From NCBI RefSeq assembly GCF_006476605.1, contig NZ_ML636801.1:372001-436000 (forward strand): a stretch of DNA of 64,000 nt, written 5' to 3'. Below, piece after piece: positions 15,394 to 54,471 of this stretch (position 1 is its first letter; each line of letters begins with the position of its first letter). Below the pieces are notes generated by a model, which was given only the letters and a program-made list of their open reading frames with translations, did no database searches and was not told the origin of the DNA. This stretch comes from Brucella gallinifaecis. Its GTDB lineage: Bacteria > Pseudomonadota > Alphaproteobacteria > Rhizobiales > Rhizobiaceae. The position numbers were made by a program, and so were the translations under genes.

Positions 15394-16305
15394 ATGAGTG
15401 AAGCGGCAAAGGGTGCAATCTTGATAGCTGGACCGACAGCCAGCGGCAAGTCGGCTCTTGCTCTTCATTTGGCAAAGAAGACCGGTGGTTTCATCGTAAA
15501 TACCGATTCCATGCAGGTTTATGATGTGCTCAATCTTTTGAGCGCCCGTCCGCAGGCTGATGAATTGCGTGAAGCTGCGCATTATCTTTATGGCCATATT
15601 TCTCCGTCTGTCTCTTATTCGACCGGCAAATGGTTTAATGATGTGCAGGCGTTACTGTTGCGCCGTGATCTTAAAGGCCGCACACCGATCTTTGTTGGTG
15701 GTACGGGATTGTATTTTCGTGCTCTTTTGGGTGGACTTTCACAAATGCCGGAAGTGCCGGTTGAGGTGCGTGATTATTGGCGCAACCGAATGAGCATGGA
15801 AGGTGCGGAAGCTCTTCATGCCATGCTCCTGAAACGTGATCCTGAAATCGCCGTCACCTTACGCTCTACTGACACTCAGCGCATTGTGCGGGCTCTGGAA
15901 GTATTTGAGGGAACCGGTAAATCTTTGCTGCACTGGCAGCAAGCAACAGGAACGGCCCTGGTCGATAATGCGAGTGCAACCAGGATTGTGTTGTTACCCG
16001 ATCGAAAATGGCTGGGTGAGAGGATTGCGCAGCGCTTTAATTTTATGTGGGATCATGGTGCGCTTGAAGAAGTGCGTGCATTAATGGCGCTGAACCTCGA
16101 TCCGGCGTTGCCGGCGTTAAAAGCGATTGGCGTGCGTGAGATTTCAGCGTTTTTTGCCGGTGATATGACGCGTGAGCGAGCCATTGAGCTTTCTGTTATT
16201 GCCACGCGTCAATATGCCAAACGGCAATCGACATGGTTCCGAAACCAGCTTGATGAGAGCTGGATGAGGTATAATTCCAGTGATGAAGCGCTTGAAAGGC
16301 AATAA
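15394..16305 (+). CDS. miaA: tRNA dimethylallyltransferase
   Basis: 303 residues. It adds the dimethylallyl group to A37 of tRNAs reading UNN codons. The P-loop GPTASGKS is at residues 13-20; [11 protein letters not shown] and SARP (substrate pocket), [20 protein letters not shown] and [12 protein letters not shown] are family hallmarks. The gene is divergent from serB. It lies just upstream of the ilv leader but is separated from it by its own promoter region. Confidence 0.97.
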
Positions 16306-16398
16306 TCTTATCGAGAAGACCTGTTATATATAAGAAAATATCGCATTTTGTGCATTTTCGCGTTGACTGTGCGATTTTCGCTGATTAGTCTCGCCGCC

Positions 16399-16455
16399 AT
16401 GAACAGAACAGCTCTTATTCTTGTGGTACGTACGCGCATGGGCAGGATGGTGTAA
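16399..16455 (+). CDS. ilvBN leader peptide
   Basis: An 18-residue frame, MNRTALILVVRTRMGRMV then TAA. Residues 5-10 read Ala-Leu-Ile-Leu-Val-Val, the branched-chain amino acids whose supply the downstream operon controls. It is followed at once by competing hairpins and a T-run. This is the classic layout of ribosome-mediated attenuation: stalling at the Leu/Ile/Val codons would favour antitermination. Confidence 0.8.
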   Translation: MNRTALILVVRTRMGRMV

Positions 16456-16511
16456 CCATCCGGCGAAAGCTCCCATGCGCGAAAGACAGGCTCCCTCGGG
16501 GGCCTTTTTTG
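16435..16511 (+). promoter_or_regulatory. Transcription attenuator of the ilvBN operon
   Basis: CGCGCATGGG (16435-16444), inside the leader frame, pairs with CCCATGCGCG (16472-16481). A later hairpin GGCTCCC/GGGGGCC (from 16489) is followed by TTTTTT at 16505-16510 and is the terminator. A smaller GGATGGT/ACCATCC hairpin lies inside. Charged-tRNA levels for Leu/Ile/Val would set ribosome position on the leader and decide between these structures. Confidence 0.75.
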
Positions 16512-16564
16512 TTATCCAAACACCAACGAAATTGAATATGTAAAGCAGACGGGAAGTGACGACG

Positions 16565-18370
16565 ATGACGGCAGCAAAAAGCGAGGCGGCAACGATCTCC
16601 GCAGGACAACGTGAAATGACCGGCGCGGAAATGGTCGTTCAGGCCATGATTGATCATGGCGTGGAACATCTTTTCGGCTATCCGGGCGGTGCCGTACTTC
16701 CGATCTATGACGAAATTTTTCAGCAGGACAAGGTTGAACATATTCTGGTTCGTCATGAGCAGGGCGCAGGCCATGCTGCTGAAGGCTATGCGCGTTCAAC
16801 CGGCAAGGTTGGCGTTATGCTGGTAACATCGGGTCCGGGTGCCACCAATGCGGTCACACCGTTGCAGGATGCCTTGATGGACTCGATTCCGCTGGTTTGC
16901 ATTTCCGGTCAGGTTCCGACATCGTTGATCGGCTCGGATGGTTTTCAGGAAGCGGACACCGTCGGCATCACCCGTCCTTGCACAAAGCACAATTGGCTGG
17001 TTCGGGACGTCAATGATCTTTCGCGTGTTCTGCACGAAGCGTTTCATATTGCGTCTACGGGTCGTCCGGGTCCGGTTCTGGTTGATATTCCAAAGGATAT
17101 TCAGTTTGCGACCGGCATTTATACGCCTCCGCAGACCGCGCCACGCACCAGTTATCGCCCAACCATTGAAGGCGACAAGGCGGCAATTGCGCAGGCTGTT
17201 GAAATGTTGTTGAGCGCCAGGAAGCCTGTTATTTATTCCGGTGGTGGCGTTATCAATTCCGGGCCAGCCGCAACAAAACTGTTGCGTGAACTGGTTGAGA
17301 TCAGCGATTTCCCGATCACATCAACCTTGATGGGACTGGGTGCCTATCCTGCATCGGGCAAAAACTGGCTTGGTATGCTGGGCATGCATGGCACTTATGA
17401 AGCCAACATGACGATGCATGATTGCGATGTCATGCTGTGCATTGGTGCGCGGTTTGATGACCGTATCACGGGCCGTCTTAATGCTTTCGCGCCGCATTCG
17501 CGCAAGATTCATATCGATATTGATCCATCGTCCATTAACAAGAATGTTCGCGTTGATGTGCCGATTATCGGTGATGTCGCCCATGTTCTGGAAGATATTG
17601 TTCGCCAGTTTCGCGCTGCCTCCAAAAAGCCGGATGCAAACGCGATTGGTGCATGGTGGGAGCAGATTGACCGCTGGCGTGCGCGTCAATCGCTGGCCTA
17701 TACATCGAACAAAGACATTATCATGCCGCAATATGCATTGCAGCGCCTGAACGAACTGACGAAAGGTCGCGATACCTACATTACGACTGAAGTTGGCCAG
17801 CATCAGATGTGGGCAGCGCAATTCATGGATTTTGAAGCGCCAAATCGCTGGATGACATCGGGCGGTCTTGGCACCATGGGCTATGGACTGCCAGCGGCTC
17901 TGGGTGTTCAGATTGCTCATCCTGATGCGCTGGTTATCGATATTGCGGGTGATGCATCGATCCAGATGTGTATTCAGGAAATGTCGGCTGCCATTCAGTA
18001 TAATGCTCCGATCAAGATATTTATTCTGAATAATCAATATATGGGCATGGTTCGTCAGTGGCAGCAATTATTGCATGGCAATCGTCTGTCGCATTCCTAC
18101 ACGGAGGCAATGCCAGATTTCGTCAAGCTTGCAGAAGCTTACGGCGCCCATGGCATTCGTTGTGACAAGCCAGCCTTGCTTGATGATGCAATCATGGAAA
18201 TGATCGAAGTCAACAAGCCGGTTATCTTTGATTGCCGTGTTGCCAATCTTGCCAATTGCTTCCCGATGATCCCGTCTGGCAAGGCGCATAATGAAATGTT
18301 GTTGCCTGATGAAGCGACTGATGAAGCTGTTGCAAATGCTATTGACGCCAAGGGCCGTTCCCTCGTCTGA
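16565..18370 (+). CDS. ilvB: Acetolactate synthase large (catalytic) subunit
   Basis: About 601 residues from the ATG at 16565 (GTG at 16556 also in frame; GGGAAG lies just before). It joins two pyruvates, or pyruvate and 2-oxobutyrate, in the first common step of valine, leucine and isoleucine synthesis. The catalytic Glu is in RHEQGAGHAAEGYAR; the TPP/Mg site is GDASIQMC with the following NN; FGYPGGAVLPIYD and SGPGATNAVT are family motifs. The small subunit follows after 15 bp. Expression is controlled by the attenuator upstream. Confidence 0.97.
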   Translation: MTAAKSEAATISAGQREMTGAEMVVQAMIDHGVEHLFGYPGGAVLPIYDEIFQQDKVEHILVRHEQGAGHAAEGYARSTGKVGVMLVTSGPGATNAVTPLQDALMDSIPLVCISGQVPTSLIGSDGFQEADTVGITRPCTKHNWLVRDVNDLSRVLHEAFHIASTGRPGPVLVDIPKDIQFATGIYTPPQTAPRTSYRPTIEGDKAAIAQAVEMLLSARKPVIYSGGGVINSGPAATKLLRELVEISDFPITSTLMGLGAYPASGKNWLGMLGMHGTYEANMTMHDCDVMLCIGARFDDRITGRLNAFAPHSRKIHIDIDPSSINKNVRVDVPIIGDVAHVLEDIVRQFRAASKKPDANAIGAWWEQIDRWRARQSLAYTSNKDIIMPQYALQRLNELTKGRDTYITTEVGQHQMWAAQFMDFEAPNRWMTSGGLGTMGYGLPAALGVQIAHPDALVIDIAGDASIQMCIQEMSAAIQYNAPIKIFILNNQYMGMVRQWQQLLHGNRLSHSYTEAMPDFVKLAEAYGAHGIRCDKPALLDDAIMEMIEVNKPVIFDCRVANLANCFPMIPSGKAHNEMLLPDEATDEAVANAIDAKGRSLV

Positions 18371-43132: not shown

Positions 43133-43177
43133 TGGTGGGTGATGTAGGGATCGAACCTACGACCCGCTGATTAAGAG
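43133..43177 (-). other. Prophage attachment core (attL): 3' part of tRNA-Lys(CTT)
   Basis: The minus strand reads CTCTTAATCAG, then CGGGTCGTAGGTTCGATCC, then CTACATCACCCACCA: the anticodon loop (CTT), 3' anticodon strand, variable loop, T-arm and acceptor of tRNA-Lys with encoded CCA. The 5' half (acceptor, D-arm) is absent; sequence to the right is phage DNA. A tRNA 3' end beside an integrase gene is the usual integration scar. The intact gene should be regenerated at the other end of the prophage, beyond this window. Confidence 0.88.
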
Positions 43178-43251: not shown

Positions 43252-44295
43252 TTACAAACCGTTTGTAAACTGTTCTAGCTTGGAAATAGCGATTTCGGCA
43301 AGCTCAATTTTGCCTCCCAGATAGTGCGCGTCAAGGATAGCTTCGGCATCCTTTTGGCTGTGGCCTGTAATTGAAGCAATCTGGCTTGTATTACACCCGG
43401 CAAGCGCCAGTCTTGTCACCGCTGTGCCTCTCAGATCGTGAAAATTTAAATCATCGATCCCCGCCTTGGCACAAGCTTTTCTCCAAGAAGTTCTAAACCC
43501 GTCTTCCGTCCAAGCCTTGCCATGTGAGTTTATCAGGATCGTGTCAAAGCTCTTTTCTCCATCACCAAGCAATATCTTGAGTGGCTGCCCAACGGGGATT
43601 GTCACTCTCGCGCCTGTTTTTCCCTGCTTGATGCGCAGTGTCTTGCCGTCATAGGAAGGCCAGCTGACCCGCAATAGGTCGCCTTGGCGTTGTCCGGTCC
43701 AAAGCCCCATCATAAGAGCAAGCTGTAATTCCTTCGATGCGACCTTGATAAATCGCTCGATCACGTCTGGCGTCCATATCTTTTCAGCACGTTCGGATTT
43801 ATAAAGCCTACCACCGCGCTCACAGACGTTCACTGAGATGTGGCCCCGGTCTTTTGAGAATGACAAGACACGGCTTAGCACAGACCAAGCATAATCGGCA
43901 GTTCTCGGCCTGTCAGACATGGTATCGCGCCACTGCTTGAATTTTCCTCGTGCGCGTGGGTTTTCCAGATACGCAAATGACAAATCGCCGAATACGTCCT
44001 CAATCTCCTTGAGGTATCGGATATAGTCTTTGCGGGTTTTATCAGATTTGCCGGTGAATTCGGACGCTTTGGAAAATTCCTTGATCAGGAAAGAAAGCGT
44101 CTGTTTCTTGCCTGATGTTAGCTGCTTACAGGCTTCGCTATACACTGCATGAAATTCTGGATCTGATGGAGATAGCAGTTTCCCATCTTCACCGCGTAGA
44201 AGCGGACCGCCACGCCATGCGTAATAATAGAAACGCTCCTCGCCATTAGCGAGAAGCTTTTTTACCCTGTGTACGCCTTTGAGCGAGACGCGCAT
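43252..44295 (-). CDS. int: Tyrosine recombinase (prophage integrase)
   Basis: 347 residues. An arm-binding/core-binding N-terminal half, then the catalytic domain with Arg203 (TGQRQGDLLR), Lys226, His286/Arg289 (HDLRG), His312 (GHSQ) and the nucleophile Tyr325 (AHYLG): all residues are present. It catalyses integration into the adjacent tRNA-Lys. Its start overlaps the excisionase-like gene by 50 bp, an unusually long overlap in a different frame. It ends the long leftward operon. Confidence 0.95.
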   Translation of the reverse strand: MRVSLKGVHRVKKLLANGEERFYYYAWRGGPLLRGEDGKLLSPSDPEFHAVYSEACKQLTSGKKQTLSFLIKEFSKASEFTGKSDKTRKDYIRYLKEIEDVFGDLSFAYLENPRARGKFKQWRDTMSDRPRTADYAWSVLSRVLSFSKDRGHISVNVCERGGRLYKSERAEKIWTPDVIERFIKVASKELQLALMMGLWTGQRQGDLLRVSWPSYDGKTLRIKQGKTGARVTIPVGQPLKILLGDGEKSFDTILINSHGKAWTEDGFRTSWRKACAKAGIDDLNFHDLRGTAVTRLALAGCNTSQIASITGHSQKDAEAILDAHYLGGKIELAEIAISKLEQFTNGL

Positions 44296-50214: not shown

Positions 50215-50439
50215 TTAGAAAGGAATTTCGTCAGCTTTGATCAGCTTGACGGTGTTGATCGGAGGAATGTCAGCATGAAATCCTGAAACGGCTTTGACGA
50301 CGAAGAACACTGCTCCCGGTTCCTTCAATGCCAGCCTTCCGGCTTCCTTCTCAGCTTTGTCCTTGCTGAAATGCTTATAGGTTGGAGCTGAGCCGCCACT
50401 GCGCCAGACAAGCCAGAACCTGCTAAATTCCAGAGCCAT
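50215..50439 (-). CDS. Phage protein of unknown function (74 residues)
   Basis: ATG 50439 shares one base with the stop of the gene upstream (TGATG). EFSRFWLVWRSGGSAPTYKH, a short helix KDKAEKEAGRLA, then VFFVVKAVSGFHAD: the alternation suits a small alpha/beta fold common to phage proteins whose N terminus reads FWLVW..G. Function unknown. Confidence 0.72.
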   Translation of the reverse strand: MALEFSRFWLVWRSGGSAPTYKHFSKDKAEKEAGRLALKEPGAVFFVVKAVSGFHADIPPINTVKLIKADEIPF

Positions 50440-50783
50440 CAAGCAGCCCTCCCATGTACGTAATCGTTGATTGTCTCGATGGCCTTGTCGATCAGATCCA
50501 GAACGTCCTCAGAGCGTTTCAGGCGGTAATCCCGGCGCTCTTTGTCGCTCATTGGCGGCTCACTTCCGAACCCGCGCAGGTAGTCGATCAACCGGATTTC
50601 ATCGTCACAGTTCTTTTCAAGAAACCGGCCAAGCAAGCGGCGAACCTCAAGCCCACTCTCGCCCTGATCCTTCAAGGTGAAACACGAAAGCCCAACCGAT
50701 CCGGCAATGCCCTCAATGGCTTCAACAGCCGCCGTGTGGTTCTTGAAAATCGCCAGTAGTTCGGCTCGGTCTGACATTTCCAT
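50439..50783 (-). CDS. Phage early protein of unknown function (114 residues)
   Basis: First gene of the leftward operon, next to the left operator. Helical: AELLAIFKNHTAAVEAIEGI, VRRLLGRFLEKNCDDEIRLI, DVLDLIDKAIETINDYVHG. GGGGTG lies upstream of the start (ATG 50783 or 50777). First-position genes in such operons often act on host functions, but nothing specific can be read here. Confidence 0.72.
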   Translation of the reverse strand: MEMSDRAELLAIFKNHTAAVEAIEGIAGSVGLSCFTLKDQGESGLEVRRLLGRFLEKNCDDEIRLIDYLRGFGSEPPMSDKERRDYRLKRSEDVLDLIDKAIETINDYVHGRAA

Positions 50784-50849
50784 TCACCCCATGTTGTCGG
50801 CCAGATCAGCGTTTGCTTCTTCGTGGCCGTGTTCGGTATGTGAGTGAAG

Positions 50850-50888
50850 ATACCAGATTGGTATAGACTGTCAATACCAAAATGGTAT
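50850..50888. promoter_or_regulatory. Left operator region (OL-like): two ATACCA-N3-TGGTAT sites
   Basis: ATACCAGATTGGTAT (50850-50864) and ATACCAAAATGGTAT (50874-50888) are perfect inverted repeats with centres 24 bp apart. Extra half-sites CGGTAT occur at 50834-50839 and 50895-50900. The same site occurs between the repressor and cro genes, so the repressor should control both this divergent region and its own. Confidence 0.85.
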
Positions 50889-50898
50889 AGAAAACGGT

Positions 50899-51207
50899 AT
50901 GAGCAAAAAACCTTCCAACCCCGCAGCCATCTATTTGCAGAACCGTGACAACTGGATCAGGCTATTAGTTGATGATCTTGATATGGCCCATACAGCCGTG
51001 CGCGTGGGGCTTCACCTTGCTATGCGCATCAATGCCACAGACAAGGATGCATGGCCTTCCACGGCCACTATTGCGAAGATGACAGGGGTTAGCGTTCGCT
51101 CTGTTATAAGCGCGCTTCAATCTCTGGAAGATGGCGGATATTTGCTTTGTGCTCGAAAACGAAACATCGGAAACAGATACTGGCTTCGTTTCAAGTGGGC
51201 TGAATAA
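50899..51207 (+). CDS. Helix-turn-helix protein beside the left operator
   Basis: 102 residues. AHTAVRVGLHLAMRINATDK, then WPSTATIAKMTGVSVRSVIS and ALQSLEDGGYLLCARK make a winged helix-turn-helix like the N-terminal domain of phage replication initiator or DnaD-like proteins; the C-terminal domain those proteins carry is missing. Transcription runs rightward from the operator region. Two copies of a short inverted repeat lie just after its stop. Confidence 0.75.
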   Translation: MSKKPSNPAAIYLQNRDNWIRLLVDDLDMAHTAVRVGLHLAMRINATDKDAWPSTATIAKMTGVSVRSVISALQSLEDGGYLLCARKRNIGNRYWLRFKWAE

Positions 51208-51208
51208 G

Positions 51209-51244
51209 TGCAACCATTGCAGTTATATAAGTGCAACCATTGCA
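51209..51244. repeat. Two tandem copies of TGCAA-CCA-TTGCA
   Basis: Identical 13-bp inverted repeats at 51209-51221 and 51232-51244, within a longer direct repeat TAAGTGCAACCATTGCA, spaced 23 bp. They differ from the ATACCA operators. They lie directly after the helix-turn-helix gene, so they could be its operator pair or short iterons. The rest of 51245-51338 is very AT-rich and holds no gene. Confidence 0.6.
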
Positions 51245-51338
51245 TATGAATAACGGAAAGCTGAATAACGTTAAGTTATATATCTTAGATATAATTCTCT
51301 GAGGTATAAATTATATACACAAGGAAATTGATCAGATC

Positions 51339-51560
51339 ATGGACAGTTTGGATTACATAAAAACGCAATCTCATCGACTGAATGATGATCAACGAGGCTT
51401 CGTTATGTTGATGGATGAATTGCCAGAAGGGTCAGTGCCAACGAAAACCGACAGCGAACGCATCGCGCAGTTGTATCTCTGGCTGCATATGGACAAAGGT
51501 TCGATTGCGCATCGAAGGTTTTCATCTTCCGTTCCCGTTAAGGGCAGGCGCAAACGATAG
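51339..51560 (+). CDS. Phage protein of unknown function (73 residues)
   Basis: MDSLDYIKTQSHRLNDDQRG, then MLMDELPEGSVPTKTDSERI and LYLWLHMDKGS, ending in a basic KGRRKR tail. GGAAATT lies upstream. Convergent with the DUF2335 gene, sharing the hairpin at 51563-51590. No family recognised. Confidence 0.6.
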   Translation: MDSLDYIKTQSHRLNDDQRGFVMLMDELPEGSVPTKTDSERIAQLYLWLHMDKGSIAHRRFSSSVPVKGRRKR

Positions 51561-51562
51561 CC

Positions 51563-51590
51563 AAACAAAAACCCCGCCGAAGCGGGGCTG
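51563..51590 (-). terminator. Intrinsic terminator of the lysogen-expressed genes
   Basis: On the minus strand CCCCGC (from 51587) and GCGGGG flank a TTCG loop and are followed by TTTTTGTTT. It lies 4 bases after the DUF2335 stop codon. Confidence 0.88.
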
Positions 51591-51593
51591 GTG

Positions 51594-52040
51594 TTAGTTT
51601 TTATTTGGACGATTGACCTTTACAAAGGCCCAAACAATCGATCCGATCATTGTGCCTCCGAGTATTGCGGCTATCCAATTTGCATCCATGCTGATTGCAT
51701 ATGCAGTCACTGCCAATACCGATAAGACAAAAATTATCGCGAGGGATTTACCATAGATACTCTCGAAAATAGTCCATCGGATCTCTTTCTTTTCAAGCTC
51801 GCGCCGATGTTTTGACTCTTCTTCCCAAGCTGTAAAAATACGTTCAGCGCCATTATTGACGATCTGATCATATTTCAGCATATCGGAAGGCGCGGGCAGA
51901 GGTCCAGACCAAGATGATTGTTCAACGCTTACTTTCATAGCTATACGTTGATTATCTTGATTTGCATGTTGATGATGTTGCGCTTGAGGAGGTGACGCTC
52001 GTTTAGCGGCTGGTTTCTTCACGGCTTTTTTCTTTCGCAA
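51594..52040 (-). CDS. DUF2335 membrane protein
   Basis: 148 residues from a TTG at 52040 (GAGAG upstream); the next in-frame ATG is 51938. A basic Lys/Ala/Pro-rich N terminus precedes the DUF2335 core: SGPLPAPSDMLKYDQIVNNG, then AERIFTAWEEESKHRRELEK, a helix, and two membrane helices (ALAIIFVLSVLAVTAYAI-like region about 96-114 and WIAAILGGTMIGSIVWAFV). The family occurs in prophages and bacteria with no proven role. It ends the repressor-strand gene set, so it is probably made in lysogens. Confidence 0.85.
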   Translation of the reverse strand: MRKKKAVKKPAAKRASPPQAQHHQHANQDNQRIAMKVSVEQSSWSGPLPAPSDMLKYDQIVNNGAERIFTAWEEESKHRRELEKKEIRWTIFESIYGKSLAIIFVLSVLAVTAYAISMDANWIAAILGGTMIGSIVWAFVKVNRPNKN

Positions 52041-52251
52041 TGGCCGCTCTCATGTCTGCGCCCAATCGAACAAAGTCACCGCGAAGTGCTTTGTTGGCCG
52101 AAACGCCACGAGAGTTGGCCGAGACATTGCTCGGTCCAGCCAAAGTCAGAAGAGCCGCTAATCCGGTCACAAAGCTACCGGCGACACCTTTACGGCGTCG
52201 TTTAGGCTGATAGCGGGTGTTGTACCGTTCTTTTAAAGCGATCTTGGACAT
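52003..52251 (-). CDS. Small basic protein with a hydrophobic segment (82 residues)
   Basis: KRRRKGVAGSFVTGLAALLT, then LAGPSNVSANSRGVSANKAL: a strongly basic start, a short hydrophobic run (about 22-40) and a charged tail. It overlaps the DUF2335 start by 38 bp and lies in the same direction, so the pair is likely coupled. No family recognised. Confidence 0.65.
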   Translation of the reverse strand: MSKIALKERYNTRYQPKRRRKGVAGSFVTGLAALLTLAGPSNVSANSRGVSANKALRGDFVRLGADMRAAIAKEKSREETSR

Positions 52252-52345
52252 GGCCCGAATATATTCCCCTGATCCTGAAAATCAAATTAACATTTTGTTA
52301 CGCGGTAAATTCCTCATTCCCCATCCCCTTTATCCCCGCGTGGGG

Positions 52346-52966
52346 TTACCACTTGCATGCTGAACGAATTGGCTTCACCGCTTCATCGAAGCCTCTGATG
52401 TCAAAGGTCACAGTGATGGCCGACTGGTTGAATGGTGTTACCCGTACGACCAATTGTTTATGACCTTCCAGAGATTTCAGGAAAGGAATTGCTGATCCGC
52501 CACTCCACAGTCCTAAGCCTGTGTTGTCGGTTGATACGTTAAAGCCCTTAGTTACGGCTTTGTCGGTATCGAGGCGGTATGTGATCTTCCCGTAATTCTG
52601 GATGTCGGATAGGAACTGGTCTGCGAAGGTAAAGTAAGCAGAGGTTTTGTTTTCTTTGCAGCGCATGTGTATCTGCGCATATCCGGTGCCACCAAACCTC
52701 TTGGAAAGCTTATCTTCGGATTGGAGGGCAGCGTAATGATCTGCCGTGTCGGCTATCTTAGAAACATCGGTCTGGCTACGCCATTTGCCAGTGCCTTCTG
52801 TGATCGGATCGGTTTTTATCTCGTTTCTGAAAATACCGTCATAGCAAAGAAGGCGCTTGGCTGCATCGTTCTCTTTCGCGCATGAATTGCCACTATCCTC
52901 TGCCTGTACTGGCACGACAACAATCACTGCAATCAAGGCGACCCCCGCCGCTCTAAATCCCCGCAT
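52346..52966 (-). CDS. Secreted TagO/VasI-like protein
   Basis: 206 residues. Signal peptide ends near VQAEDSG. CAKENDAAKRLLCYDGIF is a disulfide-type CA...RL.CYD motif as in TagO/VasI proteins; then KWRSQTDVSKIADTADHYAA, IHMRCKENKTSAYFTF and a C-terminal Cys. TagO-like proteins were first described with type VI secretion, but relatives occur in prophages. ATG 52966 follows the repressor stop by 17 bp, with GGGGATT upstream, so it is likely co-expressed with the repressor in lysogens. Periplasmic location is inferred. Confidence 0.75.
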   Translation of the reverse strand: MRGFRAAGVALIAVIVVVPVQAEDSGNSCAKENDAAKRLLCYDGIFRNEIKTDPITEGTGKWRSQTDVSKIADTADHYAALQSEDKLSKRFGGTGYAQIHMRCKENKTSAYFTFADQFLSDIQNYGKITYRLDTDKAVTKGFNVSTDNTGLGLWSGGSAIPFLKSLEGHKQLVVRVTPFNQSAITVTFDIRGFDEAVKPIRSACKW

Positions 52967-52983
52967 GTAATCCCCTGTAAAGT

Positions 52984-53709
52984 TTAGCGTCTTGCTACGT
53001 GACCGCAGATACGGCCAATGATTTGAACCCGCTCTAAATCCACCTCAAACGTCTCAAGAGCTGGATTGTCGGAAATGATTTTCACTCTGGCTGGGTCGGA
53101 GAATGGAACGCGCTGTAGGCGTTTTATCTGCGGCTCGCTGACACCGTCGCTGATTGCGTAGACCGTATCAGACACATGATCTGTCTGGCTTAGGTCAACG
53201 ATAACCCTGTCTCCAGGTTGATACGTTGGCGACATGCTATCCCCAACGACTTCCATCACCACGGTTGATTTGCGCGAGCTGCGCAATTCCTGCGTTACGA
53301 AATCATCTGGCATCACCCATTCCGCGACTACCCGATGACCTGCAACCCTCTCCCCGCCATGTTCCACGCTGATAACCTCACCAATGGAGCCAAGACCAGC
53401 CCCCAGCTTTACATCAATCTCAGGTATGGCCCCTGGCGTCGATGGGGTCCAATGTTCCCTGCTGTATGCTTTTTTGTCGAAGTCAGGATCGTAGCTATGC
53501 ACTAAGCTGCTGCGTGTATTCGCCTCTGGAAACATCAGATCACCAGCCGAAACGCCGAGGTGCGGGGCTATTTTTGTTGCCCACTCTTTAGTCAATTTAC
53601 GCTGCGTCCCCTCAAGCCTTTGAATTTGAGGCTGAGAAGTCCCGACCAACTCCGCAAGCTGCGATTGGCTAAGTTTTTTTAGTTCGCGGAGGCGCTTAAT
53701 TTCATTCAT
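52984..53709 (-). CDS. Phage repressor with LexA-type S24 peptidase
   Basis: 241 residues. N-terminal XRE helix-turn-helix: KKLSQSQLAELVGTSQPQIQ, then RLEGTQRKLT (about 10-40). The C-terminal S24 domain has Ser158 in VVGDSMSPTYQPGDRV and Lys196 in PQIKRLQR, the catalytic dyad; Ala104-Gly105 in KLGAGLG is the probable self-cleavage site. It should be inactivated by RecA after DNA damage, inducing the phage. It binds, by inference, the ATACCA-N3-TGGTAT sites next to cro and at 50850-50888. Confidence 0.92.
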   Translation of the reverse strand: MNEIKRLRELKKLSQSQLAELVGTSQPQIQRLEGTQRKLTKEWATKIAPHLGVSAGDLMFPEANTRSSLVHSYDPDFDKKAYSREHWTPSTPGAIPEIDVKLGAGLGSIGEVISVEHGGERVAGHRVVAEWVMPDDFVTQELRSSRKSTVVMEVVGDSMSPTYQPGDRVIVDLSQTDHVSDTVYAISDGVSEPQIKRLQRVPFSDPARVKIISDNPALETFEVDLERVQIIGRICGHVARR

Positions 53710-53720
53710 GGCGGGACGTT

Positions 53721-53791
53721 ATTCCGGCTTGGTATGAAAATCAAAAACCATAATGGTATTTTTTGCTTGCAATGCGATACCAAACTGGTAT
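53721..53791. promoter_or_regulatory. Right operator region (OR-like) between repressor and cro
   Basis: ATACCAAACTGGTAT (53777-53791) is perfect; AAACCATAATGGTAT (53745-53759) has one weaker half; ATTCCGGCTTGGTAT (53721-53735) is a still weaker copy 24 bp further left, the spacing seen at the left operator. One more half-site TGGTAT (53797-53802) runs into the cro start codon. Three graded sites between divergent repressor and cro genes mirror the lambda OR plan. Confidence 0.82.
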
Positions 53792-53800
53792 GTTGCTGGT

Positions 53801-54007
53801 ATGGAAAAGCTGAAAACATACCTCAAAGACAACGGCCTATCGCACGATGCCTTCGCAAAGGAGGTTGATGCGACACAGGCGACCATCACGAGATACGTGC
53901 GCGGGGATCGCTTCCCGACACCACAGATGATTGTGAAGATCGCCAAGGCTACTAATGGCGAAATTACAGCGTCTGATTGGTATGCAAGCTCTGCTGGTGC
54001 AGCATGA
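53801..54007 (+). CDS. Cro-like helix-turn-helix protein
   Basis: 68 residues from ATG 53801. MEKLKTYLKDNGLSHDAFAK, then EVDATQATITRYVRGDRFPT is an XRE helix-turn-helix with no further domain. Divergent from the repressor across shared operators and first in the rightward operon, it fits the Cro role. The start codon overlaps an operator half-site. Its stop overlaps the next start (ATGA). Confidence 0.88.
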   Translation: MEKLKTYLKDNGLSHDAFAKEVDATQATITRYVRGDRFPTPQMIVKIAKATNGEITASDWYASSAGAA

Positions 54008-54471
54008 GTATTCACCAGTTCCCGCGGTGCGCTGCCTATCTCAAGGGCATGCGTGTGAACCTGAATGATCCAGAAATGACGGATTATTGGTTCGCGGTGA
54101 TCCTTGGCGACAGAATGCCAAAAGAAGAATTGGAACGTGACGGGATCAACTTCAATCGACACGAACGCGACGGCATCAAGCTTTTGCAGGGCATAGAGCG
54201 CATTCTGGTTGAAGGTCGCAACAAGAGCAAGGTTTGGGCCAGTGAAGCTCTCAAAGCATTTATCGGCTCTCGTGGCGTGAAAGCCTCGAAGCTGAAAACC
54301 ATAGAAGATTTTTGGAAGGTTGCGGCCATTCTCTGGCCTCAGCACATCAAAGGAAAGATCGGCAGTCTCGATCAGCTTGAGGCTCATATCCGGTCCTTAT
54401 CCAAGAAACAAAGACAAGCGGCGCGTGAGAACCTCAAGCGGGTTCCTGCTGAGTTTCGCACAGCTTTTTAA
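54004..54471 (+). CDS. Phage protein of unknown function (155 residues)
   Basis: ATG 54004 overlaps the cro stop by four bases. Helical throughout: FPRCAAYLKGMRVNLNDPEM, HERDGIKLLQGIERILVEGR, FWKVAAILWPQHIKGKIGSL, then a basic LSKKQRQAARENLKRV. Position second after cro is where lambda has cII, but no cII similarity is seen. Confidence 0.7.
   Translation: MSIHQFPRCAAYLKGMRVNLNDPEMTDYWFAVILGDRMPKEELERDGINFNRHERDGIKLLQGIERILVEGRNKSKVWASEALKAFIGSRGVKASKLKTIEDFWKVAAILWPQHIKGKIGSLDQLEAHIRSLSKKQRQAARENLKRVPAEFRTAF

Follow-up and report, generated by a model that had tools for sequence, protein, structure and literature searches.

Do the three genes that follow the repressor of a prophage in Brucella gallinifaecis form a single device, and what might they do for the lysogen? 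The prophage begins in a stretch of 64,000 nucleotides (the window; contig NZ_ML636801.1 of assembly GCF_006476605.1, positions 372,001 to 436,000), whose own numbering is used below. Read on the minus strand from 53709 to 51594, the order is an S24-type prophage repressor that heads the unit (52984..53709; HTH_3 and Peptidase_S24 domains, phrog_4), a VasI/TagO-like gene, a small gene and a DUF2335 gene, closed by an intrinsic terminator. A preliminary description of this DNA had given the same order and took the three genes behind the repressor as one cargo set; its coordinates and domain names were borne out when the features were recomputed. It missed that the small gene and the DUF2335 gene are a widespread overlapping pair. 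Judged by sequence comparison, the cargo is two modules, the VasI-like protein and an independent small-DUF2335 pair. As a whole it is read here, tentatively and with rather less than even confidence, as phage-control cargo expressed in the lysogen, in which an exported VasI-like protein would accompany a two-protein membrane device.

An overlapping small gene and DUF2335 gene

The DUF2335 protein (51594..52040, minus strand; 148 aa from a TTG start) scores 47.3 bits against the curated PF10097 cut-off of 25 and matches phrog_3996, a family labelled "membrane protein" in the moron category, at 4.9e-29. Its predicted model (pLDDT 87.6) has helices at residues 51-60, 64-117 and 121-142, so that a 54-residue helix leads into a hairpin, and Foldseek returned no solved relative of it. 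The PF10097 and phrog_3996 models cover DUF2335 alone, whereas the protein of the window is one half of an overlapping pair. The other half is encoded by the small gene (52003..52251, minus strand), which runs from 52251 to 52003 and so overlaps the DUF2335 gene (52040-51594) by 38 bp; its product is a basic protein of 82 aa (18 K+R versus 6 D+E), recognized by the partner profiles described below and with no Pfam model found for its family. Both proteins had been described as membrane-associated, and this finds support for DUF2335 but not clearly for the small protein, whose best 19-residue hydropathy is 1.48; a value of 1.6 or more is reached by only 2 of 105 small relatives, as against 96 of 105 DUF2335 proteins. 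The sequence common to the small partners is a short hydrophobic stretch followed by "DW..vG.Dl..A".

A nucleotide pattern for the core of DUF2335 picked out at least 119 genome loci and 68 viral loci (187 listed), which do not amount to a census and are not wholly independent, some contigs occurring in both collections. DUF2335 is encoded at all 187 of these pattern-selected loci. A first partner profile built from 12 sequences, the one from the window included, matched 127 of 19,422 open reading frames (ORFs), 124 of them adjacent to DUF2335 by a strict criterion and the other 3 no more than 300 nt upstream of it; in 19 control loci it matched none of the 3,730 ORFs. An iterated profile (three rounds, trained on matches from the same listed loci) detected an upstream partner at 161 of the 187 (101 of 119 genome loci and 60 of 68 viral loci), with no match away from DUF2335 in the searched loci. 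When the listed loci were clustered at 70% identity, 117 of the resulting 136 clusters had a partner. Named phyla represented among the listed genome loci number 25, and among the paired ones 24.

The way in which the two frames are joined is also conserved. The same phase between DUF2335 and the small gene is found in 129 of the 161 listed pairs, and it is the phase of the 38-nt overlap in the window (2 modulo 3); in 135 of the 161, a start codon for DUF2335 falls within the small gene. Distances among the small proteins track those among the DUF2335 proteins across 105 loci (Mantel r 0.33, versus at most 0.11 in 2,000 permutations), a correlation of which adjacency by itself would yield a part. 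A profile of 113 partners, from which the window's own was withheld, gave a single match, the small gene at E 8.1e-11, among the 854 six-frame ORFs of at least 40 aa in the window, the search that gathered the 113 having been seeded with a set that contained the window's small protein. On these comparisons the small gene and DUF2335 behave as a unit, a conserved overlapping pair that is separate from VasI.

Temperate phages carry the pair as well, at cargo sites next to integrases or following lysis genes. Relatives of DUF2335 are present in 22 phage records, of which 13 were inspected, and each of these 13 has a short ORF that overlaps the start of the DUF2335 frame and matches the first profile, to which 11 of the 13 ORFs had contributed. 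The named hosts of these phages include Pseudomonas, Klebsiella, Escherichia, Alteromonas, Leptospira, Staphylococcus, Streptococcus, Lactococcus and Lacticaseibacillus. When eight partners were compared with PHROGs, six matched families of unknown function (26284, 27385, 29944, 10654 and, weakly, 23666) and two had no match, and none of the eight matched Pfam at E 0.01; the partners are short and fast-changing, and the PHROG families matched are unlinked. At one genome locus (L025, G052) partner and DUF2335 form a single frame of 315 residues, which reflects either a genuine fusion or an insertion or deletion where the two overlap. Spread of the family is patchy: DUF2335 occurs in 26 of 398 genomes of a phylum sample, that of the window included, and one version is present in 69 of 5,426 E. 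coli genomes.

The VasI/TagO-like protein

The first cargo gene (52346..52966, minus strand) starts 17 bp after the repressor, as had been claimed, and is separated from the small gene by 94 bp. Its product of 206 aa exceeds the curated PF11319 cut-off (62.9 bits versus 26.5) and matches phrog_1848 at 9.6e-33. The N-terminus is hydrophobic and signal-like, as judged by hydropathy only. An IalB/MotY-N fold is predicted, with structural similarity across most of the domain; relative to IalB of Bartonella (3dtd) and the N-terminal domain of MotY (2zf8, 8z5n), the aligned identity is 7-13%, and the likeness is in fold alone. This likeness invites an explanation in which the cargo alters the envelope of the host for purposes unrelated to phages, such as stress, surface properties or host interaction, with the VasI-like protein acting as a periplasmic or outer-membrane factor in the manner of IalB or MotY-N. 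Such a role is unlikely: a shared fold proves no function, and the recurrence of VasI-like genes after HTH (helix-turn-helix) regulators and at further cargo sites in phages would fit phage biology equally well.

PF11319 is also the family of VasI, TagO and EvfG, accessory proteins of the type VI secretion system (T6SS), although the protein of the window sits behind a phage repressor and outside a T6SS cluster. The host does have a T6SS sheath gene, VipB (contig C19 of its genome, G000, 15694-16602; E 5.3e-136), and the prophage copy is the sole PF11319 match in that genome, so that a T6SS accessory captured or supplied by the prophage might be envisaged. It is nevertheless very improbable, since the protein does not reach the cut-off of TIGR03360, the T6SS VasI equivalog of NCBIfam (44.1 versus 124.2 bits), the gene lies in a prophage on another contig (C2) than the sheath gene, and its relatives occur in many phages.

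Of 27 viral clusters with VasI-like genes, 15 were inspected, and in 4 of the 15 these genes come immediately after an HTH regulator. Elsewhere, in viral contigs L311, L324 and L332, they have genes for tape-measure or minor-tail proteins as neighbours on the other strand. In Klebsiella phages, the interval between the major tail and tape-measure genes holds a VasI-like gene in one case (L004) and a small-DUF2335 pair in another (L016), where the two stand as if they were alternatives.

The preliminary description had proposed that all three genes make up one superinfection-exclusion set that blocks entry at the periplasm and inner membrane. The presence of all three behind one repressor and the signal-like N-terminus of the VasI-like protein are in keeping with a joint set; none of the searches made, however, turned up the trio a second time. 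None of 73 viral loci selected by a VasI pattern holds DUF2335, and among 35 genomes of the genus only that of the window has it, while the pair is widespread elsewhere, including phages of Gram-positive hosts in which the stretches covered carry no annotation of a VasI-like gene. A single three-gene exclusion set is thus quite improbable. The broader part of the proposal, that cargo is carried behind a repressor, fares better, both in the 4 of 15 viral clusters and in the related prophages G014 and G029.

The cargo place in related prophages

Searched at the DNA level with positions 50439-54471 as query, the 35 genomes of the genus gave matches in 14, the window's own genome included, and matches longer than 200 bp in three other genomes only (G014, G029 and G003), of which the first two were compared. 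In G029 (L414) the place of the cargo is empty, a convergent ORF lying directly behind the repressor, while the HTH_36 gene and the gene after Cro are 85% and 75% identical to those of the window. In G014 (L415) two neighbouring genes have 99% and 94% identity to those of the window, and behind the S24 repressor there are five same-strand ORFs other than the window's cargo: two whose starts resemble a lipobox by eye, one VasI-like and two further ones. This VasI-like protein has 25% identity to that of the window and scores 64.1 bits with PF11319. None of the remaining four matched Pfam above cut-off (DUF4386 at E 0.016 for one) or any PHROG at E 0.001. Over its initial 29 bp, the first of the G014 cargo ORFs agrees at 93% with the beginning of the VasI gene in the window, a hint of an exchange point at this position. 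The idea of repressor-linked cargo finds support in the empty place of G029 and in the different ORFs of G014, a VasI-like one among them. The comparison suggests a variable cargo slot behind the repressor, with borders that are not clean, and it points to where cargo may be exchanged, with a VasI-like gene recurring there.

From its layout, the cargo would be made in the lysogen from the transcript of the repressor. A sigma-70-like site (TTGATT-16-TATATT, 52285-52258) lies ahead of the small gene, and such sites are not commoner in the window than expected by chance (3 found versus 4.1). The terminator (51570..51589, minus strand) has a stem that begins at 51589, 4 nt past the DUF2335 stop as had been described, with 8 pairs followed by TTTGTTT (-18.1 kcal/mol, z -3.0; 2 of 200 shuffles equally good). 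Terminator-like sites as a class show no enrichment in the window (2 found versus 3.2 expected), so that the call leans on position and folding energy. A plus-strand ORF of 73 aa (51339-51560), which matched neither Pfam nor PHROGs at E 0.1, converges with the cargo at this terminator.

The unit is bracketed by copies of the 15-bp palindrome ATACCANNNTGGTAT, of which the window holds 5 versus 1.26 expected, a number reached in 2 of 100 shuffles. Three operator-like copies (53721..53791) lie between the repressor and a divergent Cro-like HTH_3 regulator (53753..54007, plus strand, with an alternative ATG start at 53801); those at 53721, 53745 and 53777 have 2, 1 and 0 mismatches, respectively. 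Two exact copies, starting at 50850 and 50874 (50850..50888), lie past the far end of the cargo. The palindromes are likely operators of the S24 repressor, and their position on both sides of the cargo suggests that it may also control the divergent genes at 50783 (minus strand) and 50899 (plus strand). The latter is the HTH_36 gene (50899..51207) that flanks the cargo place and is conserved in G029.

The prophage as a whole looks temperate and complete, with the cargo region as its lysogeny unit. Direct att repeats of 45 bp, 47,343 bp apart, delimit an element of about 47.3 kb: the left copy (43133..43177) is part of tRNA-Lys, and the right copy, outside the window at the equivalent of 90476-90520 (L405, 8076-8120), lies inside tRNA-Lys(CTT), the only copy at which ARAGORN found a whole tRNA gene. 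A tyrosine integrase-like ORF, named by eye, marks the left end (43252..44295, minus strand), and genes for terminase, major head protein, portal, tape measure, tail fibre and endolysin follow past the end of the window.

Possible roles: phage control or a membrane toxin

Phage control is placed first on account of the cargo positions of the pair, the alternation seen in L004 and L016, the patchy spread and a fusion of TIR with DUF2335. By the mechanism envisaged, DUF2335 would sit in the inner membrane through its C-terminal hairpin with the long helix in the cytoplasm, and the small protein, made by coupled translation, would bind it and set its on or off state. On entry of another phage the complex would disturb the membrane or block the infection, and the exported VasI-like protein would act at this barrier from the periplasm. 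The pair taken by itself is possibly, though doubtfully, an undescribed bacteria-wide two-protein anti-phage membrane system, or a membrane toxin held by its small partner, that temperate phages of Gram-negative and Gram-positive hosts carry as cargo; the TIR fusion would be a variant of it, and in this prophage it would share its place with a protein of IalB/MotY fold.

The fusion is a single TIR_2-DUF2335 protein (L105, 6870-7610, in G352) near an integron-type integrase ORF, recognized by eye. A neighbouring gene is repeated at this locus. Compared, through the PADLOC models, with Thoeris and other TIR-effector defences, the family shows a TIR_2 domain in this one DUF2335 relative, while the protein of the window is without TIR. 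The literature searched on DUF2335, COG5346 and PF10097 contained no study of the family and no description of the small-DUF2335 module; within the portions covered, the mention of DUF2335 in PMC6267618 is probably a naming slip for another DUF, and in PMC8809351 a DUF2335 gene appears in a list of Dickeya genes that were assayed for maceration. The nearest parallel in arrangement is Pseudomonas phage Fc02, in which olg1 and gene 10 are superinfection-exclusion genes near the repressor (PMC9936078, in the portions covered). There too overlapping small genes lie at the repressor, and olg1, within the repressor transcript, excludes phages. The authors tie olg1 to a DEDDh exonuclease domain, however, and gene 10 belongs to the lytic operon on the other strand; the portions covered name no DUF2335 or VasI-like protein.

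Several results weigh against the phage-control reading. No PADLOC-DB 2.0.0 match at E 0.1 was obtained for the three proteins of the window, the pair proteins of eight relatives gave one weak match (E 0.022), and no second full-length TIR-DUF2335 fusion was present in 295 genomes of the order concerned. Integrase-like ORFs occur at 3 of 119 listed genome loci and 3 of 68 viral loci, and since they are rare even in the latter, they are an insensitive test of a phage link for chromosomal copies. The repressors diverge as well (the window's has 28.8% identity to that of G014 and 31.3% to that of G029, all of the same type), so that exchange of cargo is inseparable from exchange of the whole immunity region. 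At E 0.1 the first profile found a partner in only 15 of 27 phylum-search loci, which partly recur in the pattern scan; of the others, two (L039 and L046) begin near a contig end, one (L025) is the locus with the single fused frame, and four (L031, L034, L035 and L036) have a similar-looking ORF that was left uncounted. Finally, 26 of the 187 listed loci have DUF2335 without a detectable partner, at least one of which (L275) starts at a contig edge, and no recurrent third gene accompanies the pair in the listed loci.

The last two results bear also on a toxin-antitoxin or addiction module, in which DUF2335 would be a membrane toxin and the small upstream protein its antidote, serving upkeep of the prophage rather than defence against phages. 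Two overlapping genes with the small one first and no constant third gene are what such a module would look like, as is the wide and patchy spread that takes in bacterial genomes, and the DUF2335 profile has a non-significant match (E 0.048) to the helical pore-forming toxin chain 7nmq. Yet no toxin or antitoxin family was matched among the DUF2335 and small proteins scanned, and a toxin would hardly tolerate the 26 loci without a partner, which count against it unless the partner is merely too divergent for detection. An addiction module is therefore rather unlikely, and phage control by two separate modules is retained as the preferred reading.

The cargo thus includes a member of an orphan membrane family, DUF2335, as one half of a pair whose other half lacks any Pfam model found. 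With a partner assigned to it, what was an isolated domain of unknown function becomes part of what would be a defined two-gene system, clonable from phages whose hosts are easy to handle in the laboratory. If the anti-phage reading of the pair is true, an NADase-type domain would replace or drive the partner in the TIR-DUF2335 variant. Prophage cargo that is coexpressed with a repressor can decide the behaviour of the lysogen and which phages infect it.
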